A stretch of DNA of 64,000 nt, taken from Faecalibacterium prausnitzii (GTDB taxonomy: Bacteria; Bacillota; Clostridia; Oscillospirales; Ruminococcaceae). Each line of letters begins with the position of its first letter. Position 1 is the stretch's first letter. This document shows, in pieces, positions 23,563 to 57,147 of this stretch. The stretch spans positions 248,001-312,000 of the forward strand of contig NZ_PRLE01000002.1 in assembly GCF_003287495.1 (NCBI RefSeq), given 5' to 3'. The position numbers and the translations under genes were made by a program. The notes below the pieces were generated by a model. The model saw nothing but the letters and a program-made list of their open reading frames with translations, was not told where the DNA came from and searched no databases.

Positions 23563-24060
23563 ATGCAGGAAGAAGTCAACGAGAAAACCATTTCGCTGTG
23601 CATCAAAGGAGGAAAAATCACCGCACAGATTTTGAAAGCGGCTTTGATAAAGCTGCTGGCAGAGATGGACAAGAAAAAGCAGCGGGGGAAAGGAGAAAAA
23701 AGCCAATGTAAGAAAACGGGTCGGCAGAGCATCAAGAGCCTGCAGAAGAGCGGCGCGCAGATCACGAACATCGTTGTCACAGACAATAATATCAAGTCCT
23801 TCGACCGGGTAGCCCGGAAATATGGCATTGATTATAGTCTGAAAAAGGTGGAACAGGAGGGAAAAAGCGAATATCTGGTCTTTTTCAAGGCCAAGGACGT
23901 GGATGTTATGACCGCCGCCTTTAAGGAGTACACCAGCGAAACGCTGAAAAAACAGAAGCGTGAATCGGTACGCAAGAAGCTGGAAAAGGTGAAAGAGGAA
24001 CTTTCCAATCACCGTCAGCTCAAGAAAGAAAAGAAGAGGGAGCAGGAACCGATACGATGA
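23563..24060 (+). CDS. pcfB: PcfB family protein (DUF3801)
   Basis: PcfB-like proteins are small conjugation accessory proteins encoded just before the coupling protein; the pCF10 namesake belongs to the substrate-recruiting apparatus. The 165-residue product has the expected pattern: SLCIKGGKITAQILKAALIKLLAEM at the N-terminus, GRQSIKSLQKSGAQITNIVVTDNNIKSFDRVARKYGIDYSLKK in the middle, and a basic, Lys/Glu-rich coiled tail. Its stop overlaps the virD4 start (ATGA), as is normal for this pair. Confidence 0.88.
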   Translation: MQEEVNEKTISLCIKGGKITAQILKAALIKLLAEMDKKKQRGKGEKSQCKKTGRQSIKSLQKSGAQITNIVVTDNNIKSFDRVARKYGIDYSLKKVEQEGKSEYLVFFKAKDVDVMTAAFKEYTSETLKKQKRESVRKKLEKVKEELSNHRQLKKEKKREQEPIR

Positions 24061-25124
24061 AAAATCAGAAAACACCTGCCCGCCTGCCGCGCAAAGCACC
24101 GTCCAACCAGACGGGTGGGACGGCATGGGGCAAAAAAATGGCTGCGGAAATCAGCCGGATGGCGCAGGCAGCAGATATGAAAAGGCTGATCCTGTTGAAT
24201 TTTCCGTACATCATCGCCTTTTACATGGTGGAGAAAGCCGCATGGCTCTACCGCCATTGCAATGGCGATTCCGTGGTGGACAGGCTGATGGTTCTTTTTA
24301 TGAACTTTGGCCTGGCCTACAAAAGTGTCTTGCCCAGCTTTCACCCATTCGACCTGATGGTGGGGCTGGTCGGCGCAGCTGCACTGAAAGCAGTGATCTA
24401 CTTCAAAGGGAAGAACGCGAAGAAGTATCGGCAAGGCGAGGAATATGGCTCTGCCCGGTGGGGCAACCAGAAGGACATCGAACCTTTTATTGACCCGGTA
24501 TTCGAGAACAACGTCATCCTCACACAGACCGAACGGCTGATGATGAGTGGTAGACCAAAGCATCCGAAGTACGCCCGCAATAAGAACGTCATTGTGATCG
24601 GCGGCAGTGGAAGCGGTAAGACCCGATTCTACGTCAAGCCGAATTTGATGCAGATGCCCCAAAAGGTAAGCTATGTCATAACTGACCCCAAGGGTACGAT
24701 CATTATCGAGTGTGGAAAGATGCTCTCGGATGCCGGGTATAAAATCAAAGTCCTGAACACCATCAACTTCAAAAAATCCATGCGGTACAATCCGTTCCAT
24801 TACATCCGCAGTGAGAAGGATATTCTGAAACTGGTCAATACCATCATCGCCAATACAAAGGGCGATGGAGAAAAATCCGGCGAAGATTTCTGGATCAAAG
24901 CCGAACGCCTGCTCTACTGCGCACTGATCGGCTACATCTGGTATGAAGCCCCGGAGGAGGAGCAGAACTTTTCCACGCTGCTGGAGTTCATCAACGCCAG
25001 CGAAGCCCGCGAGGATGACGAAGAGTTTAAGAATCCTGTGGATGAACTGTTTGAGGAATTGGAACAGAAGAAACCGGAGCACTTTGCAGTCCGTCAGTAT
25101 AAGAAGTATAAGCTGGCGGCCGGT
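24057..25124 (+). pseudogene. virD4: Coupling protein VirD4/TcpA, N-terminal half (split by IME)
   Basis: This is the first 356 codons of the type IV coupling ATPase that brings the relaxosome to the mating channel. Two N-terminal hydrophobic segments (IIAFYMVEKAAWLYR; LMVGLVGAAALKAVIYF) anchor it, and YGSARWGNQKDIEPFID is a family hallmark. Walker A is GGSGSGKT at about 182-189. The normal protein breaks off at YKLAAG; the rest (KTAKSILISCGARLAPFDI) resumes at 34109, beyond the inserted element. Walker B (LLDEFANIG) is on the other half, so neither half can be a working ATPase. The frame runs on without a stop into the serine recombinase gene. The rejoined gene would encode about 628 residues. 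Confidence 0.92.
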
Positions 25125-25184
25125 GTTGTATGCTCTAAAAGACTTCTTAATCAAGCGGTTGGGAAGTCTCTTAGAACACACAAC
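25125..25184 (+). repeat. 22-bp-stem hairpin at left end of the IME
   Basis: Positions 25125-25146 pair with 25163-25184 along all 22 positions, with three G-U pairs and a 16-base loop. It starts one base inside the left junction and ends 27 bases before the recombinase ATG. It may be a recombinase-binding arm, or an RNA hairpin that controls transcription or translation entering from virD4. No long T-run follows. Confidence 0.75.
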
Positions 25185-25211
25185 CTAAAACCGAAGAAAG
25201 GAGCGCAAGTT

Positions 25212-27089
25212 ATGAGAAAAAATGAGAAAATCACAGCTCTGTACGAACGACTGAGCCGTGATGACTTTGGCAAAGATGATGACCAACAGCGTGAGAGCAA
25301 TTCCATATCCAATCAAAAGGCAATGTTGGAGGAGTTCGCCGCACGGCAGGGCTTTACAAACATTGTCCATTTCACGGACGATGGCATTAGTGGTACTTGC
25401 TTTGACCGTCCCGGATTTTTAGCAATGATGAAAGAAGTGGAAGCCGGGAATGTGGAGTATTTGTGCATCAAGGACATGAGCCGCATGGGTCGTGACTATC
25501 TGAAAGTCGGTCAGATTATGGAAATCCTGCGTCAGCGTGGCGTTCGCCTTATCGCCATCAATGACGGCGTGGACAGTGCCAGAGGGGACGATGATTTTAC
25601 CCCTTTCCGCAACATTATGAACGAATACTACGCCAGAGACACCAGCCGTAAAATCCGTTCCACTTTCCAGTCCAAAGGCAAGTCCGGCAAGCACCTCACA
25701 GGCACGGTCATTTACGGCTATCTTTGGAACGAAGCCAGAGACCAATGGTTGGTTGACCCCGAAGCCGCCGAGGTGGTCAAGCGCATCTTTGCCATGACGA
25801 TTGACGGCTACGGTCCGTATCAGATCGCCAGCAAGCTGAAAGAAGAAAAAGTCCTCATTCCGTCCGCTTACCTTGCCCGGCACGGCGAGGGCGTGAACAA
25901 AAATAAGACCTTCAAAGATGTGTACGGCTGGGGTTCTTCCACCATCTGCAACATTCTTGAAAAGCGTGAATATCTGGGACACACCATCAACTTCAAGACC
26001 CGAAAGCACTTCAAGGACAAGAAAAGTCATTATGTCCCGGAGGACGAATGGACAATTTTCGAGAATACCCATGAAGCTATCATTGACCAGCAGACCTTTG
26101 ACCTTGTGCAGAAAATCCGTGGGAATGTCAGACGCTACCCGGACGGCTGGGGCGAAGCAGCTCCCCTCACAGGCTTGCTTTATTGTGCCGATTGCGGCGG
26201 CAAGATGTATGTCCACCGTACCAACAACGGCAAGCGTATTTCTCAATATACCTGTTCCCAATACAGCAAAGTCCCAGTTGGAAAGCTCTGCACGACACAG
26301 CACCGTATCAATGAAGATGTGGTACTGTCCCTTGTTTCCGAAATGCTCAAAGCTATTGCCGAGTATGCGAAGCATGACAGAGCCGAGTTTGTCCGAGTGG
26401 TGCAGGAAGCGCAGTCCAGCCAGCAGACGGCAGAGGTCAAGAAACAGCGGACACGCCTTGCCACCGCAAAGCAGAGAGTTTCCGAGCTGGAAGTCCTGCT
26501 CTGCAAAATCTATGAGGACAACATTTTAGGAAAGCTGTCTGACAGCAGATATGCCACTCTGGACGCTCAATATGAAAAGGAGCAGACCGAGCTTACCGCT
26601 GAAATCTCTGTTCTGGAAAAGGCTATCAAGAGCTACGAGAAGCACGAAAAGGACGCTGACCGTTTTATCGCTCTGATTGACAAGTATGAGAACTTCGACA
26701 AGCTGACGATTGCCATGCTCAATGAGTTTATTGAGAAAATCCTTGTGCATGAGCGTGACCGCAAGGGCAGTATTCAGACCACACAGGAGGTCGAGATTTA
26801 CTTCAATTTCGTGGGTCGTTTCGTTCCCCCTGCGTTTGGCGAAGTGGAGCTTACCCCGGAGGAATTAGAGGAAATCCGCAAGCGTGAGGAACGCAAGGAC
26901 AGGCTCCACCAGAACTACTTGAAGCGGAAAGCCAATGGTAAACAGAAAGAGTATGAGGAGCGCACGAAAGCCAAGAAAAAAGCGGAGATTGAAGCCAGAA
27001 AACAGGCAATCCGCACCGAGGATATTGCCAGAGGGGTATTTATCCCGGTGAGCAGTTTGCCGCAGCTGGGACCGAGAAAGGGAGCGTGA
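25212..27089 (+). CDS. Large serine recombinase (TnpX/TndX-like)
   Basis: This 625-residue recombinase would excise and integrate the IME through a serine-DNA intermediate. The N-terminal catalytic domain begins ITALYERLSRDDFGKDD, with the nucleophile at S15, and includes HFTDDGISGTCFDRPGF, KDMSRMGRDYLKVG and RKIRSTFQSKGKSG. The recombinase domain follows (IYGYLWNEARDQWLVDPEAAEVVKRIF), then a zinc ribbon (LLYCADCGGKMYV ... YTCSQY ... LCTT), a coiled coil, and a DUF4368-like tail. The ATG at 25212 follows AAAGGAGCG. The upstream virD4 frame is continuous with it, so some product might arise by read-through; I annotate the internal start because of its ribosome site and typical N-terminus. Confidence 0.95.
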   Translation: MRKNEKITALYERLSRDDFGKDDDQQRESNSISNQKAMLEEFAARQGFTNIVHFTDDGISGTCFDRPGFLAMMKEVEAGNVEYLCIKDMSRMGRDYLKVGQIMEILRQRGVRLIAINDGVDSARGDDDFTPFRNIMNEYYARDTSRKIRSTFQSKGKSGKHLTGTVIYGYLWNEARDQWLVDPEAAEVVKRIFAMTIDGYGPYQIASKLKEEKVLIPSAYLARHGEGVNKNKTFKDVYGWGSSTICNILEKREYLGHTINFKTRKHFKDKKSHYVPEDEWTIFENTHEAIIDQQTFDLVQKIRGNVRRYPDGWGEAAPLTGLLYCADCGGKMYVHRTNNGKRISQYTCSQYSKVPVGKLCTTQHRINEDVVLSLVSEMLKAIAEYAKHDRAEFVRVVQEAQSSQQTAEVKKQRTRLATAKQRVSELEVLLCKIYEDNILGKLSDSRYATLDAQYEKEQTELTAEISVLEKAIKSYEKHEKDADRFIALIDKYENFDKLTIAMLNEFIEKILVHERDRKGSIQTTQEVEIYFNFVGRFVPPAFGEVELTPEELEEIRKREERKDRLHQNYLKRKANGKQKEYEERTKAKKKAEIEARKQAIRTEDIARGVFIPVSSLPQLGPRKGA

Positions 27090-27093
27090 TTTT

Positions 27094-27471
27094 ATGAAAG
27101 AGTTGAAACCGAGAATCCATGAGAACGGTATGGACTATGTGTTGGTGGGCGACTACTATGTGCCGGACTTGAAGCTGCCGGAGGAACGCCGACCTATTGG
27201 GCATTGGGGACGCTTGCACCAGTCCTATCTGAAATTGCACCGTCCCATGCTTTACAACGAGCTAATTTTGTCCGGCAGGCTCCACACCGTCGTTGCCGAT
27301 CTGAACGAGCAGGCGGCAGACAGGCTGGACTTGATTATCCGGCAGATGATGAAAGCCGAGGGCGTGACCGAAGCCATGAAAGCGGAAAATCAGATGTTAT
27401 GGGTGCAGTCAATGAACTCCATCCGCTGCCGGGCAGAGGAAATCATCAAGACGGAACTAATCTACTGTTGA
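27094..27471 (+). CDS. tnpV: TnpV family transposon-encoded protein
   Basis: A 125-residue TnpV-type protein, a family carried by mobilizable transposons and ICEs of Clostridia whose role is not settled. Landmarks are YVLVGDYYVPDLKLPEERRPIGHWGRLHQSYLKLHRPMLYNELILSGRL and the end WVQSMNSIRCRAEEIIKTELIY. It starts 4 bases after the recombinase stop, with GGGAGCG at the end of that gene as ribosome site, so the two are co-expressed. A paralogue with the same pattern ([13 protein letters not shown] ... SGRL ... EIVLKELVY) is nested at 48151-48492. Confidence 0.9.
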   Translation: MKELKPRIHENGMDYVLVGDYYVPDLKLPEERRPIGHWGRLHQSYLKLHRPMLYNELILSGRLHTVVADLNEQAADRLDLIIRQMMKAEGVTEAMKAENQMLWVQSMNSIRCRAEEIIKTELIYC

Positions 27472-34064: not shown

Positions 34065-34108
34065 CTTCTTTGTGAATTTGATGAAAAAGTCCTTGACTTT
34101 TCGTCTCT

Positions 34109-34930
34109 GGCAAAACGGCAAAATCCATCCTCATTTCCTGCGGTGCCAGACTAGCCCCATTTGATATTGCGGAGCTGCGTGACCTTATGGCCTATGATGA
34201 AATGGAACTGGATTTTCTGGGGGATCGCCGCACGGCCTTGTTCGTTATCATTTCCGACACGGACGATACCTTCAATTTCGTGGTGTCCATCATGTACACC
34301 CAGCTTTTCAATCTGCTTTGTGACCGTGCAGATGATCAATGCGGAGGTCAGCTAAAGTATCATGTGCGGCTGCTACTTGATGAGTTTGCGAACATCGGTC
34401 TGATCCCGAAGTTTGATAAGCTGATCGCCATCATCCGCAGCCGCGAGATTTCGGCATCCATCATCCTGCAGTCTCAGAGCCAACTTAAAACCATCTACAA
34501 GGATGCCGCAGAAACCATCATCGGCAACTGCGATACCATGCTGTTCCTCGGCGGCAAGGAAAGTTCGACGCTCAAAGAAATTTCCGAAACGCTGGGAAAA
34601 GAAACAATCGACCTATATAACACATCCGACACACGCGGTCAAAGCCCATCCTTTGGTACAACCTACCAAAAGACCGGAAAGGAGCTTATGAGCCGGGACG
34701 AACTTTCTGTCATGGATGGCAGCAAGTGTATCCTGCAGCTGCGCGGTGTCCGGCCATTCCTCAGCGACAAATTCGACATTACCAAGCATAAGCGGTACAA
34801 AGAACTGTCGGACTTTGATAAGAAGAACGCTTTCGATGTGGAACGCTACCTGAAGCACGAACTAAGGCTGCGGATGGATGAAGAATTTGATTGCTACGAG
34901 GTGGATGTGTCCGAAGAAAGCACAGCATAG
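34109..34930 (+). pseudogene. virD4: Coupling protein VirD4/TcpA, C-terminal half (split by IME)
   Basis: The remaining 273 residues of the coupling protein, in frame from the right junction: GKTAKSILISCGARLAPFDIAELRDLMAYDEMELDFLGDRRTALFVIISDTDDTFNFVVSIMY. Walker B is LLDEFANIG, followed by the conserved IATIRSREISASIILQSQSQL-type segment (IAIIRSREIS here), LGGKESSTLKEISETLGKETID, and ILQLRGVRPFLSDKFDITKHKRY. There is no start with a good ribosome site inside it (the first ATG is at 34187), so this half is probably not made while the IME is present. The maff2 gene follows. Confidence 0.92.
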
Positions 34931-35277: not shown

Positions 35278-38040
35278 GTGCGATGCGTTCCTGACTGAAA
35301 AGGTCAGGCACAAGTTGAAGGACTAAAGAAGTCCAGAATCTTGGAGAACTGATATTTCGATGGATGAAATGAGGGAGTAACGCCCCGAAGCGTCCACACT
35401 GATACTCCGACTGGCATAGGCGCGCAACCGCCGATTGTCAGAAGCTCGGTGAAGTCGGCAGAAAGATGTCGTAGTTCTGGCCGCAAGGTCAGAGCCGAAA
35501 GCTGTCCAGAGGTGGACGGTGCATCGGATATGCCGGGTGTCAGCCGCCCATGGTTAGTATGTATGGAAATACTGACGAACTTCTGAATGTACAAGTCTAA
35601 ACGTTGATACCATCGAAATGGTGGTACTCCTTATATGGAGGTATTCGTGGATGAGTAAGAATGGTTGTTATGAAAGTCCATGTGCCGTTACAGGCGGCAC
35701 GATTCGGAAAGAATTGAATACAGGCTTAGAGGAAGAACCTAAAGGTGGCCCATGATAGAAATATCGGAACGCAGGAAGCTGAAAACATTTAGCCTGTTGC
35801 AAGGCTGTGAGATGGTGGATGGGAATACCTTCGTGAGAGGGCAATAACCATTCTTTGTTTCAGTGAAAGTAGTGGCGTAGTACCTGTGAAACCGTGAAAA
35901 AGTAAGCGGTGGAGGGAAGGCCACAAGTCGAATTCAGTGAAAGTAACATCAAGATACAACAAACACAGCTTCGAGTAAGACTAAGAAAATCCAACCCGAA
36001 AGGAGAGGATGCCTGTGTTGACTTCGGAGCGGCGAGAAAAGAAGCAAGGAAAAATCCGAAACTCGGAATACTACGGCATGGAATTCATCTTTGATACGTT
36101 GTATGCAGAAAGCAGGAATGGCAAAACATTCAATCACCTCATGGAAATCATTGAGAGTGAAGAAAACATTAAACTGGCATACCGAACTATCAAAAGGAAC
36201 CATGGAAGTAAAACGCCGGGTGTAGATAAAAAGACAATACGAAATCTCGCAAAACTAAGCGAGGATGAGTATGTCCGCCTTGTAAAGAAGAAATTCAGTA
36301 ATTACCATCCTCGCCCAGTAAGGCGTGAGGAAATACCAAAGGGTAATGGAAAAACCAGACCACTGGGGATTCCGGCGATCTCAGACCGTATCGTGCAGCA
36401 ATGTATATTACAAGTCATGGAGCCAATCTGCGAAGCGAAGTTCAGTGAAAATTCTAACGGATTCCGCCCAAATCGTTCCGCAGAAACAGCCATTGCACAG
36501 TGTTGCAGGTTGATACAGGTACAACACCTGTACCATGTAGTAGACCTTGATATTAAAGGCTTCTTCGACAATATCAATCACACAAAGCTGATACGGCAAA
36601 TATGGTCACTTGGTATTCGGGATAAGAAACTGCTGTGCATTATAAAACAGATGCTAAAAGCCCCTGTTATCCTGCCGAATGGTGAAAAGATTTACCCCAC
36701 CAAAGGTACGCCGCAGGGCGGAATCCTTTCACCACTACTTGCTAATATCGTGCTGAACGAACTGGACTGGTGGATTGCATCCCAGTGGGAAAATATGCCG
36801 ACCAGAACGGAATTCACGATACGGCATAATCGTGCAGGTGCAGAAATAAAAAGCCACGTCTATCGGGCATTGCGGCGCAGTAATCTGAAAGAAATGCACT
36901 CGGTTCGGTATGCGGACGATTTCAAGATTTTTTGCTCATCCCATGCGGATGCAGTAAAGGCATATCATGCAACAGCCAAATGGTTGAAAGACCGGTTGGG
37001 GCTGGATGTTAGCCCGGAAAAGTCGAGAATTGTCAATCTGAAACGGCAGTATTCAGAATTCCTTGGTTTTAAGCTGAAAGTGCAAAAGCGCAGCAATAAG
37101 TACGTTGTAAAATCGCATTTGTGCGACAAAGCGTACAAGAAGGTTCAAAAGAAGCTCACGGAAGAAGTGAAAAAGCTGGAACACTCGGCAGATGATAAGG
37201 CTCAGTTCATGCAACTGATGACCTATAATGCTGTGGTGGCAGGAATACACCAGTATTACTGCATTGCAACGGCTGTTTCTGAGGACTTTGGAAAGCTGGC
37301 TTATGGGGTCAAAAAGCAGATGCACAATCGTCTGCGGAATGACCTGACACGCAAAGGTGAACTGAAAAAGGGCTATATCAAAGAAAAGTACGGAAAAAGC
37401 AGTCAACTGCGATTTCTGCATGGACGGCCAGTAGTTCCTATTGGATATGTTCAGAGCAGAAATGCCCAGCACAAAAGGAAATCGGTCAACAAGTATACGC
37501 CAGAAGGTCGGGAACTGATTCACAAGAATCTGAACATCGACACTAAGACGATGCTTTGGCTGATGCGAAACCCTGTGCAGGGTAGGTCGATAGAATACGC
37601 AGATAATCGCATATCTCTGTATGCAGCGCAGCATGGAAAATGTGCAGTGACAGGTTCAATCATGGAAGCCCATGAAATCCACTGTCACCACAGGAAACCT
37701 ATTGCGAAAGGCGGCACAGATGAATACGGAAACCTCGTTCTTATATCGGCTCCAGTCCACAAACTTATCCATGCTTCTGACATGGCTACCATAAAGTTTT
37801 ACCTGAATCTTCTCAATCTCGATAGTACGCAAATTTTAAAGCTGAATAAGTTTCGTGAGATGGCAGAAATGCCTTTGATTGATTAAAAATCTTTTCTTGT
37901 TCAAGCTACGAAGTGTGTAAGTTGTATTGCAAGCCCTGTGCAACTGAATTCGATGGAACGCCGTGTGCGGTGAAAGCTGCACGCACGGTGTGGAGCCGGG
38001 GAAAAGTTGGAGATTATATCAAAGACTTACCTATGGCTAT
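35278..38040 (+). mobile_element. Group II intron in maff2
   Basis: 2763 bp. The 5' end GTGCGATGCG fits the GUGYG boundary. The 3' end has a domain V-like hairpin at about 37957-37993 (GCCGTGTGCGGTGAAAGC with GCACGCACGGTGT) and a domain VI-like stem ending in CTATGGCTAT, ending in AT. The first ~730 bases are the structured RNA part with no gene; the encoded reverse transcriptase follows in domain IV. Splicing at these ends exactly restores the Maff2 frame, so the intron is probably silent for the ICE if it splices. It carries an HNH-bearing protein, so retrohoming is possible. Confidence 0.9.
36009..37886 (+). CDS. ltrA: Group II intron reverse transcriptase/maturase with HNH domain (LtrA-type)
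   Basis: The multifunctional intron-encoded protein, 625 residues. The reverse-transcriptase fingers and palm run from about 60 to 380: RREEIPKGNGKTRPLGIPAISDRIVQQ, NGFRPNRSAETAI, DLDIKGFFDNINH, TPQGGILSPLLANIVLNELD, and the catalytic SVRYADDFKIF near residue 300. The maturase (X) domain follows. The C-terminal HNH endonuclease is CAVTG ... EIHCHHRKPIAKGGTDEYGNL near 544-585. It aids splicing, nicks DNA and copies the intron at a new site. GGAG lies only 3 bases before ATG 36009, so GTG at 36015 is a plausible alternative start. All key motifs are intact. Confidence 0.95.
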   Translation: MPVLTSERREKKQGKIRNSEYYGMEFIFDTLYAESRNGKTFNHLMEIIESEENIKLAYRTIKRNHGSKTPGVDKKTIRNLAKLSEDEYVRLVKKKFSNYHPRPVRREEIPKGNGKTRPLGIPAISDRIVQQCILQVMEPICEAKFSENSNGFRPNRSAETAIAQCCRLIQVQHLYHVVDLDIKGFFDNINHTKLIRQIWSLGIRDKKLLCIIKQMLKAPVILPNGEKIYPTKGTPQGGILSPLLANIVLNELDWWIASQWENMPTRTEFTIRHNRAGAEIKSHVYRALRRSNLKEMHSVRYADDFKIFCSSHADAVKAYHATAKWLKDRLGLDVSPEKSRIVNLKRQYSEFLGFKLKVQKRSNKYVVKSHLCDKAYKKVQKKLTEEVKKLEHSADDKAQFMQLMTYNAVVAGIHQYYCIATAVSEDFGKLAYGVKKQMHNRLRNDLTRKGELKKGYIKEKYGKSSQLRFLHGRPVVPIGYVQSRNAQHKRKSVNKYTPEGRELIHKNLNIDTKTMLWLMRNPVQGRSIEYADNRISLYAAQHGKCAVTGSIMEAHEIHCHHRKPIAKGGTDEYGNLVLISAPVHKLIHASDMATIKFYLNLLNLDSTQILKLNKFREMAEMPLID

Positions 38041-47288: not shown

Positions 47289-50200
47289 TTGCCACAGATT
47301 AACGATATTCGAGAATTGGCGCAGCAGAACGCCCGGTATGTCAGTAACTCGCCACAGGACTGGATGAGTTATCTGGATGTGGCGGCGCGGCTGTACCGCT
47401 ATTCGTTCACCGATGCGCTCCTGATCCACGCACAGCGGCCCGATGCGACCGCCTGTGCAGAACTGGAACTCTGGAATCAGAAAATGAGCCGATGGGTCAA
47501 CCGTGGTGCAAAAGGCATCGCGCTTCTGGATGATACCGGACCGCGTACCAGACTGCGGTATGTGTTCGATATTGCTGACACCCATCTGGTGCGCGGCGGA
47601 AAAACACCGCTCTTATGGAATCTGGACAGCCACGAGCATGAGCAGGCTATCTTAGACCATCTGGCAGATACCTACGGTTTATCCCAGACGGACAGCATGA
47701 ACGCTGCTCTGCTGGAACTGGCACAGCAGCTGACCGCCGACAATCTGGATGAAGCGATGGACGGTCTGGCCTATGAGGTGAAAGACACTTTTCTGGAAGA
47801 ACTGGACGAAGATAACATCCGTGTCCGCTTCCGGGAACTGATGACCAACAGTATCTTCTATACGCTTTCCCGGCGTTGCGGGCAGGAGCCTATGGATGTG
47901 CTGGACGATGATGACTTTATCCGCATCGTGGATTTCAACAAGCTGCAGGTGCTGTCGTTCCTTGGCAACGCGGTTTCCGAACAGTGCGAAGCGGTTCTTT
48001 TTGACATTGGCCGTGAGATGCGGAAAATTTACAAAAAAGAAATCACGCAGCAGCTTGAAAAAACTGTTGACAGCTTGTATAATACCAATACAGACTTTAG
48101 TGTATTAAAGCGTGAAACTGAAGAAGCCACGACCAAAGGAGGACAAGAAAATGGAGTTGACGTATTACCGCAAGGGAGATTATCTGTTCCCGAATCTGGC
48201 CGTGCAGGACGAGCCGCAGACCATCGGGAAGTACGGGATGCTGCGCAGGACGTATCTGAAAGAGAACCGCAAGAACTGGTATCAGAGTATGCTGATGAGC
48301 GGCAGGCTGAACCAGCATCTGGCGCAGATCGAGGAAGAAGCGGAAAGCAGGGTGGAAACGCTGCTGGACAGCCTGAACGAGAAGTTCCCGGCACCGAGCA
48401 AGGAGCAGGACCCGCTGGCATGGGCGGCGCACCAGAACAACCTGACAGCGATGGCCGAGGAGATCGTCTTGAAGGAATTGGTGTACAATTAACTGAATCG
48501 ACAACGGAACAGGATTTGAGCGAAGCAGAGGAAGAAATTGCCTCTGCTTTTTCTTTTCCTGATCTGCCGACCGTGGAACAGCAGATCCGCGCCATTGAAG
48601 CACCGATCCAGGCGCGGTATGCGGATGAAATTGCACTTGATTCCGAGGTGGTTGATGAAGTTCTGCGCACGGGCAGCAACCGCAGTAAAGGTCAGCTTCG
48701 TCTGATCTACAATTTCATGGTTGAGAAAACCCCGGAAGAGTACACGGAGTTCGTGAAAAACGAATATGGTACGGGCGGCAAAGGCTTTGAAATTGACGGT
48801 TCAAAGTATGCAGTCTGGTTCGATGATCTGGGGCTTCGCATTGCAGCAGGTGACACGGCCAAGGGCGGCACGCTTGTCAATGCGTTTTTGTCGTGGGAGG
48901 ATGTGAGCAACCGTATCTATGAACTGCTCCGGCAGGGTGAGTATGCGCCGCAGGCGGTTCTGGATGCTGCACGGCAGAATGCTTTGCAGGAACACGCGCA
49001 GACATTGGCTTATATGGAGCGCGACTTGGCCGATGGCGTTGCCGAAGCAGTGTTTCAGGATACAGAAATCTTCAGGGGCGGTTTCCCGGAACTGACGGAC
49101 AGACTGGCGGGCCTGCTGGACGATGCAGCTTTTCTGACCGATCTCAATGAAAGATTGTCCGCGCTGGGAGAAGCCTATGCCGAAGATAAAGACCTGATGC
49201 GGATGCACTTTTATAAGCCGGATAAGGTTGCGGCGCTGTTCCAGCAGTTTGCAAAGCCTTATCAGAACTACTCGGCGCGGGATGGCTTTCACTGGAATGA
49301 GTACAAACGATTCATCACGGAAGATGAAATCAATGGATATTTTACACGGGGCAGCAATTACTCGGACAGTCGGCTGGCAATCTATTCATTCTTTCTGAAC
49401 CACGAGGACAAAAAAGAGCGGGCAGACTTCCTGAAAGACCATTACGGAATCGGCGGCAGCAGCCATGCGCTCTGCGGGGCAGACGATTCCCACGAAGATC
49501 ACGATGGCAGGGGCATTGCTTTGGAGCGTGGCCCATACGGGAACCCGTATGCCAGCGTTCATTTGAACTGGAATCAGGCTGCAGGCCGAATAGAGCGGCT
49601 CATCCACGACAGTGAATATCTGAAACCTGCGGACTACTCCCGGATGCCTGTCTATGAGCGCGAGCGGATGGCAATGCGGGTGATGGGATTCTATCACCAT
49701 CTGCCGAACGAGGTAGAACGTCCTTATCCGCAAGACCTTTACCATGAAGAAGGCCGAAAAGCTCTTGTTGAAAAGCTGACAGACTCCGAACAGTCGGCAA
49801 AACTTCTGGAGCAGATGGACAATGCACTGCTGTCTGTGCCGCTGGATTCGGAAGAATATGAGCGCAAGGCAGAATTCCTCTCTATCCTGCACCAGTATGT
49901 CGAGGGAACGTACACGATTTTCCCGGAAAAGAAAAGGGCTGTTGAGATTGCGGTTCCTGAACAGGGGCAGATGTCTATGTTCGACTTTATGGAGCAGGAG
50001 CCGCAATCGAAAGAGCAGTCAACCGCCGCAGCGGTTGAGGAACCTCGAAAGGCAAAAGTCGTTGCACGGTATCAGTCAACGGTGATGATGCAGGCGGGAT
50101 ATATCGAGGATATTGCAATTCTGCAATATTCCGATGGCAAATTCTATAACCATTACAACTATGACGAAGAAACGGGAACAGGTACAGCAGAAACAGGGCC

Positions 50201-53200
50201 GTTTAACAGTCTGAATGATGCAAAGGCGGTTATTTGTCAAACGAGAGAAGATGCAAAAGCAGTAGAATCGTTTGAAAATCAGCCTAAGCAAATGTACAGC
50301 AGAGAAAACGGCAGTTTTCTGTATTTGGACAATAACCATCTGTACCGCATTGAGCGTTCCAATGCGCATGACGTTTATCTGAAAGATATGGAAAATTCGG
50401 CGGTGGCTGGCCGGGTCATTCCGTTACCGTCATATAGCGAAACGCTGGCGAAGAATCCGCTGAACGATTTCCTGAAACTGGATGCAGACCATACCCAGAA
50501 AGACAGCCGCAGCATCTATAAAGAATGTCTGTACACGCTGCTGGAAAAGGTAGAGCGCAGCGAAATCTATCCGCTGCTGCGTGATCGCGATACCACCGAG
50601 GAAGAAGCGGAAAATCTGATCCGTGAGAAAATCGAGGATTTGTTTGCTTCCGGCGAGGTGGAAAATGCTGCTTACTCCGAGGCTATCGACACATGGGCGC
50701 ACTTCGGAGAGTGGATTCAGGAAGATATTTTCCAGCGCACCTATCAGGACGTTATTACGGACAGGCGGGATGCCGTTGCACTGTATCAGGATAGCAAGGA
50801 CGCACCGCAATGGGTGCGCGGCATGATGGTTCCGTATGCAGCGGAAGAGAAGGCCGTTGAGCCGACCTTGCAGCCCCTGCCGCTGGATGCCGCCAACGAG
50901 TATAACGCGCTGAAAGAACGTCACCCGGATGCTCTGGTCGGCTACGAGCAGTACGGAAACTTTGAGTTCTACGGCGGAGATGCAAAGCGCGTTTCCGAAC
51001 TGCTTGGAACAAAAATTCTGGAAAAGGAAACCGCGTTCGACAAAGTTGAGGTATCTGGTTTTCCGCGTGAACAGTGGGCTTCACAGGCAATGAGGCTCTG
51101 GAAGCAAGGGGAGAACGTCTATCTGTCCGGCCAGCAGGAAGATGGAACCCATGCCCAAACGAAATACTTCCGCAGAGAGGAATATCTGCCTGTTAATACC
51201 ATCATCGAACTGGACGATAGAGAGTTCCGCGTGGATTCTGTCAACTTTGAGCAGGGAACGGTCAGCTTGCAGGACATGACCCTTGCGAAAGAAGCTCGGT
51301 ATCCGATCTTCCGAACGGAACCGCTGGATTACATTCGGCACCTGTATGAGCAGGCAGATGTGCCGATGGAAGAAGCAGTGGAAATCACGGTCTTTACGGC
51401 TCTGCACAACGCTGGCGTTGCATACGAGGATTTTTCCCCGGAGCAGATGGATGTGATCTATTCGGTGGCAGAATCAGGCGGCGAACTGGAAGAACTGCTC
51501 AACCCTGACTTTCCGCCGGAACAGATGCAGCTGATCGCAGATGTGCAGAACCGAACGGATGCCATCAGCCGTGCAGCGGCAGAGGAAGCCCTTGAACCAC
51601 TGACCCAGCAGCCTATGACCACGGCAGAGGTCAACCATGCAAGGCGGCAGCACAATCTTCCGCTGGACAGTGGAGCAGAAACGGAACTGCCTGCGCAGTC
51701 CAAACAGGAGTCTATGAACTTCCGTATTACGGACGATGATCTCGGTGCAGGAGGGCCGAAAGCAAAGTATAAAGCCAATGTGGAGGCCATTCGGGTGCTG
51801 CAAACGCTGGATGCAGAGCAACGGCAGGCTACCGCAGAAGAGCAGGAGATGCTTTCCCGGTATGTGGGCTGGGGCGGCATTCCGCAGGCGTTCGACGAAA
51901 ACAATGCGGACTGGACAAAGGAACACGCTGAATTGGAATCGCTGCTCACGGCAGATGAGTATAAGGAAGCCCGTGCCAGTACGCTGAATGCGTTTTACAC
52001 TTCTCCTACGGTCATCAAGGCGATGTACGAAGCCCTGGGCAATATGGGATTGTCCAAAGGCAACGTGCTGGAACCGTCCTGTGGTGTCGGCAATTTCATG
52101 GGTCTGGTGCCGGAGAGCATGGAGAAGATTCGGATGTACGGCGTGGAGCTGGACGGCATTTCGGGCCGCATTGCACAGCAGTTGTACCAGAAAAACAAGA
52201 TTGCGGTGCAGGGCTTTGAAACCATGCAGTTCCCGGACAGCTTTTTCGACTGTGTTGTGGGCAATGTGCCGTTTGGCAATTATAAGGTGCCGGATAAGCG
52301 GTATGATCGCCACAATTTCCTCATCCACGATTATTTTATCGCCAAGAGCCTTGACCTTGTGCGTCCGGGCGGTGTGGTGGCGGTGGTAACGTCCAGCGGT
52401 ACGATGGATAAGAAGGATTCTTCTGTCCGTGAGTACCTTGCCAACCGCGCCGATCTGGTCGGCGCAATTCGTCTGCCGAACAACGCGTTCCAGCGTAATG
52501 CCAACACGAGCGTAGTTGCGGACATTCTGTTCCTGCAGAAGCGTGACCGTGCGGCAGTGGAGAGGGCTGACTGGGTGGATCTCTCTGAAACACCGGAAGG
52601 CTACTCCATCAACCAATATTTCGCGCAGCATCCTGAGATGGTGCTGGGGGAGATCACCACCGAAAGCACTCAGTATGGCAAGCAGGAAACTACGGTCAAA
52701 CCCATCGAAGGCGCAGACCTTGCCAAGCAGTTAAAAGAGGCGGTCGGCAACATCCATGCCACCATCACGGAGCCGGAAATCTCCGACGATGAACTAGATG
52801 TGCAGGAAGAACCCATTCCGGCAGACCTAAGTGTGAAGAATTTCAGCTTCACGAATGTGGACGGACAGATTTACTACCGTGAAAACTCCTTTATGAACAA
52901 GGTGGAACTGCCTGCCGTAACTGCAGAGCGAGTGCTGGGCATGATCGCTCTGCGGGAAACCACCCGGAAGCTGTTGGACTGCCAGCTGCATGATGGTTCG
53001 GATGCGGAAGTACAGCTTTTGCAGAATGAACTGAAACAGCAGTACACCGCATTTAAGGCGCAGTATGGTCTTATCAACAGCACTGCCAACAAGCGAGCGT
53101 TCCGACAGGACAGCAGCTATTGTCTGCTGGCATCGCTGGAAATCCTAGATGAAGAGAAGAATCTCAAACGGCTTGCCGATATTTTTACAAAGCGCACCAT

Positions 53201-56200
53201 CCGTAAGCCGGAGCCTGTTACCTCAGTGGATACGCCAAGCGAAGCCCTGGCACTTTCCATTGGAGAAAAAGCAAAGGTGGATGTGCCGTTTATGGTGCAG
53301 CTCTGCGGTAAACCGGAACAGGAGATCACGGATGAACTGGCAGGTGCGATTTTCCGAAACCCTGTGACACAGCAGTGGGAAACCTCGGATGAATACCTGT
53401 CAGGCAATGTTCGTGAAAAACTGGCCACAGCAGAAACCTTTGCGGCAAACCATGCAGAATATCAGATCAATGTGGACTACCTGAAACGGGTACAGCCCAA
53501 GGATTTGGATGCTTCAGAAATTGAAGTACGGCTGGGTGCGAACTGGGTGAAGCCGGAGTACATCACGCAGTTTATGAAGGAAGTGTTCAAAACACCGAAC
53601 TACTATGCTGGTATTGACATTAAAGCAACCTATTCCGAAATTTCAGGTGCATGGAACATTTCGGGCAAGTCGCTGGATCGCGGCAATCCGCTTGTTACCA
53701 ATACCTACGGAACCCTGCGCGTCAATGCTTATAAGCTGTTGGAAGATGCCCTGAACCTCCGGGATACCAAGATCTACGATACGATTCACGATGCGGATGG
53801 CGACCACCGTGTACTGAATAAGCAGGAAACCATGCTTGCACAGCAGGCACAGGAATCCATTCGGGAAGCGTTCAAGCAGTGGATTTTCAAGGATTTAGAC
53901 CGCCGCGAGGATTTGTGTGCGACCTATAACCGGATTTTCAATGCGATTCGTCCTCGTGAGTACGATGGCAGTCATATTCGTTTTGAGGGCATGACCCCGG
54001 AAATCTCCCTGATGCCGCACCAGAAAAATGCCGTAGCGCATATTCTCTACGGCAACAATACGCTGTTAGCGCATTGCGTGGGCGCAGGAAAGACCTTCCA
54101 GATGATCGCTGCCGGCATGGAAAGCCGCAGGCTGGGCCTATCGCAGAAAAACCTCTATGTGGTGCCGAACCACCTCACAGAGCAGTGGGGCGCAGACTTC
54201 CTGCGGCTCTATCCCAATGCCAATGTGCTGGTGGCAACGAAAAAGGACTTTGAACCCAGCAATCGAAAGCAGTTCTGCTCCCGTATCGCAACCGGCGATT
54301 ACGATGCCATCGTGATCGGTCATTCGCAGTTTGAGCGAGTGCCGCTTTCCCCGGAACGACAGAAAGCCATTGTGGAGCGTCAGATCGACGATATTACACT
54401 GGCTTTGGCAGATGCCCGGAGTGAGGATAGCCGCAGTTTTACGGTCAAGCAGATGGAAAAAACAAAGAAAACACTGGAAGCAAAGCTGCAAAAGCTGAAC
54501 GACCAGACAAGAAAGGATGATGTGGTTACATTTGAGGAACTGGGTGTTGACCGTCTGTTTGTGGACGAGTCACATTTCTATAAAAATATGTTCCTCTACA
54601 CAAAAATGCGAAATATCGCAGGTATTGCCCAGACCGATGCGCAGAAGTCCAGTGATATGTTTGCAAAGTGTCAGTATCTGGACGAACTGACAGGCGGCAA
54701 GGGAGTGACCTTTGCAACGGGAACCCCGGTCAGCAACTCGATGGTGGAGCTGTACACCATTATGCGTTATCTCCAGTATGACACCCTGCAGAAGATGGGA
54801 CTGAGCCACTTCGATGATTGGGCGGCATCCTTTGGCGAAACTGTCACGGCAATCGAGCTTTCCCCGGAAGGAACCGGCTACCGTGCGAAAACACGTTTTG
54901 CCCGGTTCTTCAATCTGCCGGAGCTGATTTCTCTGTTCAAGGAATCGGCAGATGTACAGACGGCGGATATGCTGAACCTGCCCGTGCCGAAAGCGGAGTA
55001 CATTAACGAAGTGCTGAAACCCAGCGAGATACAGGAAGAAATGGTAAGTTCCTTTGCAGACCGTGCCGAAGCTGTACGCAACGGTAATGTGAATCCCAGA
55101 TTCGATAATATGCTCAAGATCACCAACGATGGCAGAAAACTGGCACTCGACCAGCGGCTTATGAATGATATGCTGCCGGATGAGCCGGAGAGTAAGGTGA
55201 ATCGCTGTGTGGACAATGCGTTCAAGGTCTGGGAAGAATCTGCGCCGGACAAGGGAACACAGTTGATTTTCTGCGATTTATCGACACCAAAGGCAGATGG
55301 TACATTCAATGTTTATGATGATGTGCGGGAAAAGCTGGTGGCGAAAGGTGTTCCTCGTGAAGAAGTGGCGTTCATTCACGAGTATAACACGGAAACCAAA
55401 AAGGCTGACCTGTTTGCAAAGGTGCGCGCTGGTCAGGTGCGTATTCTGATGGGGTCTACGCCGAAACTTGGCGCAGGAACCAATATTCAGGATCGGCTGA
55501 TTGCCCTGCATCATCTGGATTGTCCGTGGAAGCCCTCTGACCTGGAACAGCAGGAGGGGCGTATTCTCCGGCAGGGAAATCGGAATAAGCAGGTAAAAAT
55601 CTATCGTTACATCACTGAAAATACGTTTGATTCGTATATGTGGCAGATTCTGGAAAATAAGCAGAAGTTCATCTCGCAGATCATGACTTCCAAATCGCCT
55701 GTCCGTGCCTGCGATGATGTGGACGATACCGCGCTGTCCTATGCCGAAATCAAGGCACTGGCAACGGGCAATCCCTACATCAAGGAAAAGATGGATCTGG
55801 ATATTCAGGTCAGTAAGCTGAAGCTGCTGAAAGCCAACCACACCAGCCAGATTTATAGTTTGGAATCGGATATTGCGCGCCGCTATCCGCGAGAAATCGC
55901 TGCGGCAAAGGGTCAGATCGAAGCCCTGAAAAACGATATGGAAGCGGCAAAACCGCTTCTGGCGCAGGATAAAGACCACTTCGCTATGGAGATCAGCGGT
56001 AAGGTGTACAGCGAACGCAAGGAAGCGGGTGCGGTCATCATTGAGGCTTGCAAGGCTCTGAAAGCAGCAGGCACCGAGGGCAGAATCGGCAGCTACGGTG
56101 CGTTTGAACTGCATTCCCGGTTTGACAACTTCGATAAGGTGTTCCGCCTGTCCATCAAGGGCGCATGGAACTATTCGATGGAAGTCGGCAAAGACCCGCT

Positions 56201-56621
56201 GGGTAATATCCTGCGCGTTACCAATGCACTGGCAGGTATCGAAAGAGCATTGCCGCAGGTGGAACGCAGACTGGAGACCTTGGAACAGCAGTTGGCGCAG
56301 GCAAAGGAAGAAGCCAAACGTCCTTTCGCGCAGGAAGCAGAATTGGCCGAAAAATCTGCGCGCCTTGCGGAGCTGAACTCTCTGCTCAACATGGACGAAA
56401 AGGGCGGTGAGGATGCGCTGGGAGTGGATGAGGATGCAGCCGAAACCGAGGTTGCAGATAAGCCACGTCAGCCTGTGAACTATGCGGGCCGCGTTGCAGA
56501 GCGCACTGCGGACAATGTGCGGAAACCCTCTGTGCTGGCACAGCTTCATGCAAAGCAGGCAGGGCGCAGCGCAGAACCGCAGAAATCCCAGAAGCGAAAA
56601 AGTCACGAAATGGAACTATAA
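47289..56621 (+). CDS. Giant DNA methylase/SNF2-type helicase polyprotein
   Basis: A 3110-residue protein of the type carried by large ICEs and phages. Translation starts at TTG 47289 after AAAGGAGG. The N-terminal ~240 residues are ArdC/LPD-like ([41 protein letters not shown]). Residues ~288-401 are a Gly/Glu/Arg-rich linker overlapping tnpV in another frame. Long LPD-type domains follow. The methylase has EPSCGVGNF near 1595 and NVPFGNY, an NPPY-like motif that suggests N6-adenine methylation. The helicase has Walker A VGAGKT near 2260, VDESHFYKN near 2424, ATGTPVSNS and [19 protein letters not shown]. It likely protects or remodels ICE DNA on entry. Confidence 0.93.
48151..48492 (+). CDS. 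tnpV: TnpV-like protein nested in the helicase gene (alternate frame)
   Basis: A 113-residue protein encoded in the +1 frame inside the helicase gene. The ATG at 48151 has AAAGGAGG at 48135-48142, a better site than that of most host genes. The text [68 protein letters not shown] and the end [14 protein letters not shown] match the TnpV at 27094-27471 position by position in its key features. The helicase frame over the same bases is low complexity, so the TnpV frame appears to be the constrained one. Both frames are open, so both products can be made. Confidence 0.8.
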
Positions 56622-56685: not shown

Positions 56686-57147
56686 TTGCTGACATTAACA
56701 CCGATCAATCTGAAAACGGCAAACGCGTTTGTGCAGCAGTATCACCGCCACCATAAACCGACGCGAGGACATAAGTTCTCCATTGGCGTATCGGACAATG
56801 GCGCATTGGTGGGGGTTGCTATCTGCGGCAGACCCGTGGCACGGCGGCTGGACGATGGCTATACGCTGGAAGTCAACCGTCTATGTACGAATGGAACGCC
56901 GAATGCTTGCAGTATTTTGTATGCGGCGGCATACCGTGCAGCACGGGCCATGGGCTACAACAAAGTTGTTACCTACATTCTGGACACGGAGAATGGCAGC
57001 TCCCTGAAAGCTGCCGGCTACACCTGTGAGGGCAGAGCCGGAGGCTTGGAATGGAACGGCGCGAAGGCACCGAAACAGGCTGACCAATATCCGCGCCAGA
57101 TGAAAACACGATGGGTCAAGAAAAAGGAGGGCTTGCATGGCAGTTGA
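56686..57147 (+). CDS. XF1762 family protein (Mom-like, GNAT fold)
   Basis: A 153-residue protein related to the XF1762/Mom group. Phage Mu Mom modifies adenine in phage DNA to block restriction. Visible family text: TPINLKTANAFVQQYHRHHKPTRGHKFSIGVSDNGALVGVAICGRPVARRLDDGYTLEVNRLCTNGTPNACSILYAAAYRAARAMGYNKVVTYILDTENGSSLKAAGY, with a GNAT-like core. Translation starts at TTG 56686 after AAAGGAGGG. Between the methylase/helicase and the ArdC-like gene it fits a role in evading restriction. Whether it alters DNA here is not known. Confidence 0.8.
   Translation: MLTLTPINLKTANAFVQQYHRHHKPTRGHKFSIGVSDNGALVGVAICGRPVARRLDDGYTLEVNRLCTNGTPNACSILYAAAYRAARAMGYNKVVTYILDTENGSSLKAAGYTCEGRAGGLEWNGAKAPKQADQYPRQMKTRWVKKKEGLHGS

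Follow-up and report, generated by a model that had tools for sequence, protein, structure and literature searches.

Long gene pairs in which one gene is fully nested in another on the same strand have, to our knowledge, rarely been documented in bacteria. Among the closest described systems is comS within srfA of Bacillus subtilis; the srfA genes are giant, and ComS is small. The nested gene is on the strand of its host and out of frame with it, and the two products have independent functions according to the available part of the account (PMC12350097). Within mobile elements, ardD lies inside tniA, a gene for the movement of Tn5053, but on the complementary strand, and its antirestriction activity has been tested, as far as the accessible text of that report tells (PMC3533173). 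TnpV (Pfam family PF14198) is known from Tn4451 and relatives, where homology to lambda Xis led to the proposal that it is an excisionase (PMC3158075, in the portion available); nesting is not described for these named copies in the available passages. Polyvalent proteins of conjugative elements combine ArdC-N, MutS-I, methylase and SNF2 domains in one polypeptide, and the main text of their description, in the part available, contains neither TnpV nor the word "overlapping" (PMC5512222).

The locus described here brings together three known kinds of thing, an overlapping gene pair, TnpV and a polyvalent helicase: a tnpV gene of the same family lies within the gene of a giant polyvalent helicase that appears to share its set of domains with the conjugative-element proteins. 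Like comS in srfA, it is on the same strand and out of frame, and like ardD in tniA it is a mobile-element gene nested in a gene for the movement of the element. It differs from ardD in its strand. Unlike comS in srfA, which concerns one organism, the nested pair is retained throughout a large helicase family of mobile elements that spans several classes, and constraint is clearly divided between the two frames. The nested tnpV is very probably a conserved gene within a gene. With tnpV present, the unusual helicase linker is accounted for as the shadow cast by a second protein, and TnpV, long neglected, acquires a constant setting in which its function becomes testable. No description of nesting in a helicase gene was found in the literature on TnpV, or on TnpV together with helicases, in a search that lay mostly outside subscription papers and covered its sources in part.

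The nested tnpV gene and its host

The window (the whole stretch of 64,000 nucleotides that was analyzed, positions 248,001 to 312,000 of Faecalibacterium prausnitzii contig NZ_PRLE01000002.1) carries on its plus strand a gene for a polyvalent helicase of 3,110 amino acids (47289..56621), recognized as an open reading frame (ORF) and by Pfam profile search. The product comprises an ArdC-N-like N-domain, a linker, a MutS-I-like region, an Eco57I-type methylase and an SNF2 helicase. The SNF2 and Eco57I profiles exceed their cut-offs; the ArdC-N profile (PF08401) had no match in this product in the Pfam search, and helicase residues 3-82 resemble an ArdcN-bearing neighbour gene (E=1.5e-11). The first 274 residues (helN, 47289..48110, plus strand) contain the N-terminal domain and no part of tnpV, and were used as the query in homology searches. 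Behind the helicase gene, a small ORF (56686-57147) matches the Mom family (E=3.2e-6).

The nested tnpV gene (48151..48492, plus strand) occupies the +1 frame of the helicase gene over approximately helicase residues 288-401; it encodes 113 amino acids (48151-48489) and ends with a TAA stop codon (48490-48492). It is assigned from its profile match, its substitution pattern (dN/dS) and its predicted structure. The product matches PF14198 over profile positions 1-111 of 111 with 113.7 bits (curated cut-off 27, E=5.5e-33), and TnpV is its only Pfam match above cut-off. A Shine-Dalgarno (SD) sequence, AAAGGAGG (48135..48142, plus strand), lies 8 nt upstream of the ATG, and GAAAGGAG precedes the tnpV start in many homologues. 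K84, W91 and E104, all in the second half of the protein, are invariant in a 36-row TnpV alignment, and the same three residues and N96 in a 28-row alignment. A chance ORF was considered and is ruled out by the family match alone; synonymous shuffles agree. Over the same bases, the helicase frame (48150..48491, plus strand) is a stop-free, low-complexity linker of 114 residues (G 20, A 14, E 13, R 12), whose sequence is largely set by tnpV. A sequence-only reading had described this locus as a full-length TnpV preceded by a strong ribosome site, with a Gly/Glu/Arg-rich linker as its other frame, and both descriptions hold.

The genome has four TnpV genes, of which two are in the window, one in an integrated mobilizable element and the other in the conjugative element, as that reading had counted them. 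The stand-alone gene of the mobilizable element (27091..27471, coding to 27468, plus strand; PF14198 E=1.7e-43) lies behind a large serine recombinase, whose domains are in the ORF 23964-27089 just ahead of it. The resemblance noted earlier between the two proteins amounts to approximately 31% identity (35 identical residues). The mobilizable element splits a virD4/traG gene, the 5' part of which is in frame with the large serine recombinase in one ORF of 1,041 amino acids (23964-27089), and the last part of which is found at 34097-34930. Downstream of the split virD4, the region 35985-37886 encodes a reverse transcriptase that also matches HNH weakly, a combination known from group II introns.

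Distribution of the nested arrangement

The helN query, which excludes tnpV, matched 64 of 295 genomes of the order (E≤0.001). An alignment of distant helicase forms with helN as its first row (A2) matched 30 of 398 genomes of the phylum (E≤1e-8) and 71 of 130 genomes of another family in the class (E≤1e-20); A2 was built solely from helicases with a nested ORF, and very distant helicases lacking tnpV are possibly under-sampled in these matches. Genome searches were confined to the phylum, and collections of plasmid and phage records were searched besides. Matches were examined as loci in the order (70), the phylum (40), the other family (48, with L128 duplicated) and a further search (3), together with 11 of the 282 plasmid and phage records that matched helN.

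Loci found by helicase queries alone comprise 158 distinct N-domains, in 145 of which the helicase frame stays open for at least 700 nt. A nested TnpV (109) or a diverged relative of it (33) is present at the same place in 142 of these 145. Both alternative frames were allowed, and only the +1 frame occurred, always within the open helicase ORF. With a helN score of at least 80 bits and an open helicase frame, a nested TnpV or TnpV-like ORF was found in 139 of 139 loci. By its own account, the sequence-only reading would be contradicted by homologues in which the helicase frame is conserved and the +1 frame commonly broken; such genes were sought among these 139 loci and not found, the nearest cases being four partial copies. 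In these (L097, L100, L101 and L103), the nested ORF matches approximately 69-97 of 115 TnpV profile positions, the helicase frame is open, and the copies may be decaying. Both frames are maintained in the family, and since nearly all related helicase genes examined nest tnpV at the same place, one stretch of DNA has apparently long encoded two proteins.

The three open ORFs that lack nested tnpV (L133, L138 and L142) are weak helN matches (48-72 bits), as is that of L184, an open ORF without tnpV at the same place as L142. Thirteen further helN domains have a helicase frame that closes before 700 nt or reaches a contig end; the nested gene is present in four of them and absent in nine. Three of the nine (L077, L099 and L220) have a helicase frame that ends 246-366 nt past helN; L096 stops at a contig end, L105 is a fragment, and L136, L139, L141 and L147 are weak matches (27-67 bits).

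Nesting was also found in plasmids of Cohnella, Virgibacillus and Listeria seeligeri (Bacilli) and in Anaerococcus (Tissierellia), and other records called plasmids carry nested copies as well. The nested ORFs of a Streptococcus-Anaerococcus type are only weakly related to TnpV when taken alone (E 2.6e-6 to 0.07 in four loci), and intermediate helicases match both the TnpV model and the model of this type. A young, element-specific overlap is ruled out by nesting in diverged helicases together with the 139 of 139 count. As judged from the homologous sequences, the nested arrangement is family-wide and old. The overlap first noticed in the window is real and has a wider reach than was supposed, and the accompanying proposal that a pre-existing tnpV was captured as an event of this element is not supported in that form, given this distribution and the stand-alone copies not forming one clade.

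Gene tables show the overlap in part. In the five plasmid records whose table lists either frame (L107, L108, L112, L113 and L114), it gives TnpV or the helicase and never both, which points to an annotation blind spot, although this table is known to be incomplete.

Translation signals and selection on the two frames

An SD core lies within 20 nt of the tnpV start in 62 of 70 nested loci versus 1809 of 37852 background windows (4.8%); L004 and L005 are both the window, and the 70 loci are at most 69 distinct places. The core, as defined here, is absent in the other 8 loci, and two loci have a TTG start. These signals bear on how TnpV is made. It could in principle be joined to the helicase N-domain by frameshifting, without internal initiation, and in some loci the +1 frame is indeed open for up to 357 nt ahead of the TnpV profile start. 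However, the +1 frame is closed by a stop that ends 3 nt ahead of the profile start in L107 and L117 and within 45 nt of it in 43 of 104 loci, and most loci have an SD core and an ATG, which leaves the frameshift fusion highly improbable.

Substitutions were counted by helicase codon position in 34 close pairs of loci. In helN, positions 1, 2 and 3 carry 946, 704 and 2554 of 4204 changes, and downstream of the overlap they carry 1960, 1644 and 3600 of 7204, a region where a few pairs align poorly. Over the overlap, the counts are 780, 407 and 272 of 1459. Because helicase position 1 is position 3 of tnpV, the 780 changes there mean that third positions of tnpV vary most and its second positions (272) least. 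A similar shift is present in 30 pairs of a diverged family (f27), with 153, 116 and 739 changes in helN, 256, 56 and 98 in the overlap, and 272, 204 and 824 downstream. The pairs used for these counts (34 and 30) reuse a locus up to twice, and those used for dN/dS are disjoint (20, and 14 for f27). The dual-frame substitution comparison that the sequence-only reading had suggested falls clearly on the side of tnpV: dN/dS is 0.212 and 0.153 in the tnpV frame (20 and 14 pairs, respectively), 1.67 and 1.55 in the helicase frame over the same bases, and 0.135 and 0.088 in helN. Between the window and its three nearest Faecalibacterium copies, 24, 12 and 20 nucleotide changes alter 7, 4 and 6 residues of TnpV and 18, 11 and 16 residues of the helicase. 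These substitution patterns show the nested tnpV to be a protein-coding gene, with purifying selection acting on its +1 frame.

The helicase linker as the second frame of tnpV

Over tnpV, the helicase frame lacks stops in all 104 distinct nested genes, compared with 2 of 67 stand-alone tnpV genes. The other 65 stand-alone genes have 1-18 stops in the corresponding frame, and both stop-free ones come from the genome of the window. Six stand-alone copies share 69-75% identity with the closest nested copy, and in each the equivalent frame contains 3-8 stops. When tnpV codons were shuffled synonymously, an open helicase frame was expected in 4.6 of 70 loci with the gene's own codons and in 0.23 of 70 with the codon usage of the same helicase, and 70 of 70 were observed. 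Openness of the helicase frame is thus selected, as the stop-free counts, the shuffle expectations and the stops in near stand-alone copies together indicate.

Constraint on the linker beyond openness looks weak, and its sequence is mostly a by-product of tnpV. The linker has an excess of G, R, D, S and P and few K, F, Y, I and L. Among 1500 random pairs of loci, linker identity is 0.164, 0.218 and 0.269 at TnpV identity bins of 0.2, 0.3 and 0.4, and shuffled tnpV codons yield 0.146, 0.194 and 0.240 in the same bins. At TnpV identity of at least 0.7 (13 pairs), linker identity exceeds the shuffle by more (0.51 versus 0.39 and 0.64 versus 0.46), although shared descent would also yield this. 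The dS of tnpV is approximately half that of helN (0.237 versus 0.460 and 0.108 versus 0.215), and this, together with a linker identity slightly above what tnpV imposes, suggests that the helicase frame may hold some constraint of its own. Purifying selection on tnpV and the high dN/dS of a helicase frame that nonetheless stays free of stops suggest that tnpV codons largely write a flexible, open linker.

A ribosome would be expected to traverse the stop-free overlap and make one long helicase, in which the overlap peptide is a flexible joint between the ArdC-like N-domain and the remainder of the protein. TnpV would be made through internal initiation on the helicase mRNA, an arrangement that would keep it always co-expressed and co-inherited with the helicase.

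Origin of the overlap

A TnpV tree with 71 nested rows and 57 stand-alone ones switches label (nested or stand-alone) nine times; after removal of 11 long-branch rows, it switches five times, and the hypothesis that all stand-alone rows form one clade is rejected (p=0.0002). The tree, which is unrooted, rests on 114 columns and includes long branches; the 11 rows were removed after the first tree had been seen, and the labels had been fixed beforehand. Several stand-alone tnpV genes resemble nested copies more closely than they do most of their stand-alone counterparts, and since the stand-alone genes do not form one clade, tnpV may have moved out of helicase genes as well as into one. With the tree unrooted, operon fusion, capture and overprinting are all compatible with it.

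In an operon fusion, an ArdC-like gene, tnpV and a helicase gene would once have stood in a row, the first stop would have been lost, and read-through would have turned the second frame of tnpV into a linker. This is a possible origin, put forward tentatively: it accords with a TnpV model that is compact and confident, with the weak constraint on the helicase frame over tnpV, and with a tnpV start 16-175 nt beyond the end of the N-domain profile in the loci examined. An unfused order of ArdC-like gene, tnpV and helicase was, however, not found in the short flanks of the 67 stand-alone tnpV genes, and an extra TnpV-like ORF just upstream of the helicase occurs in L103 alone. There, a second TnpV-like stretch is on the minus strand (L103:3773-4480), and its ORF ends at the start of the helicase ORF with the nested copy.

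Capture would instead place a stand-alone tnpV, by luck open in the helicase frame, into a linker that already existed. Mobile elements commonly carry stand-alone tnpV, and cargoes inside snf2 genes have been published that bear TnpV, in the available part of that report (PMC9815147). Nested tnpV in all 139 well-matched open helicases, very diverged ones included, weighs against capture, since no close relative lacking tnpV shows an empty site, as does the scatter of the stand-alone copies over more than one clade; capture is accordingly somewhat doubtful.

Among overlapping genes, the older frame is usually more constrained. The more constrained frame here is tnpV, and the contrast between it and a linker under weak constraint makes fusion or capture more likely than overprinting, that is, a birth of tnpV de novo in the helicase linker followed by escape to mobilizable elements. 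Overprinting is unlikely on these grounds and is read from an unrooted tree of 114 columns, although the most diverged TnpV forms are found mostly nested, 42 stand-alone rows cluster together next to nested rows (support 91), and nested copies are the nearest relatives of several stand-alone ones. The very diverged forms also include stand-alone ones (L204 and L206), which counts against it. L183, L204 and L206 carry very diverged TnpV-like ORFs; L206 has two close together, and the one in L183 is in the +1 frame of another helicase-like ORF.

Structure and possible role of TnpV

The AlphaFold2 model of TnpV (pLDDT 90.7, pTM 0.71) is a beta hairpin with four helices. Searches with it gave no match at E≤0.001 in the PDB, none at Z≥5 in a second comparison against 87 chains, and no useful fold match in BFVD (best E 0.32). 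The PHROG that matches TnpV carries no functional label. Xis has a winged-helix DNA-binding fold; on the question of such a fold in TnpV, the hairpin and four helices found no strong match either way.

A lambda Xis-like excisionase, the role postulated in print for Tn4451 (PMC3158075, as far as its available text goes), would suit the finding that 15 of 67 stand-alone tnpV genes have a serine recombinase in their flank. In contrast, a recombinase is found beside none of 104 nested genes (short flanks and a single recombinase query in both cases), plasmid records carry nested copies, and the nested product matches TnpV alone among Pfam families above cut-off and has a pI of 5.2; an excisionase is thus quite improbable. 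Since nested copies on plasmid records and the missing flanking recombinase leave the excisionase role unsupported, an accessory role beside the helicase is favoured. TnpV could be a small helical accessory of the helicase/methylase polyprotein in the transfer or establishment of element DNA, with mobilizable elements keeping stand-alone copies for the same activity; this is a reasonable possibility, if an uncertain one. The earlier argument that TnpV is useful to both the mobilizable and the conjugative unit is plausible as a putative role. A broader generalization is more speculative: in Bacillota, the polyvalent SNF2/methylase helicases of conjugative elements might in most cases encode two proteins at the same place, with TnpV as the obligate partner that writes the linker and stand-alone tnpV genes as escaped copies tapping the DNA-processing machinery of the helper.

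An acidic DNA mimic was considered as another role and rejected for most TnpV rows, in which net charge gives no strong signature (median -2 in nested and -1 in stand-alone rows); the f27 type alone shows one (-10.5). A stand-alone TnpV gene is also present on a Klebsiella IncHI2 plasmid (L259:2998-3360), near an aminoglycoside resistance gene. In BFVD, the TnpV model weakly matches part of a viral protein of 1,093 residues (Q8W6J4_2; prob 0.97, E 0.69, TMq 0.50, rmsd 2.5), where the modelled fold would perhaps correspond to a TnpV-like domain within a large protein.
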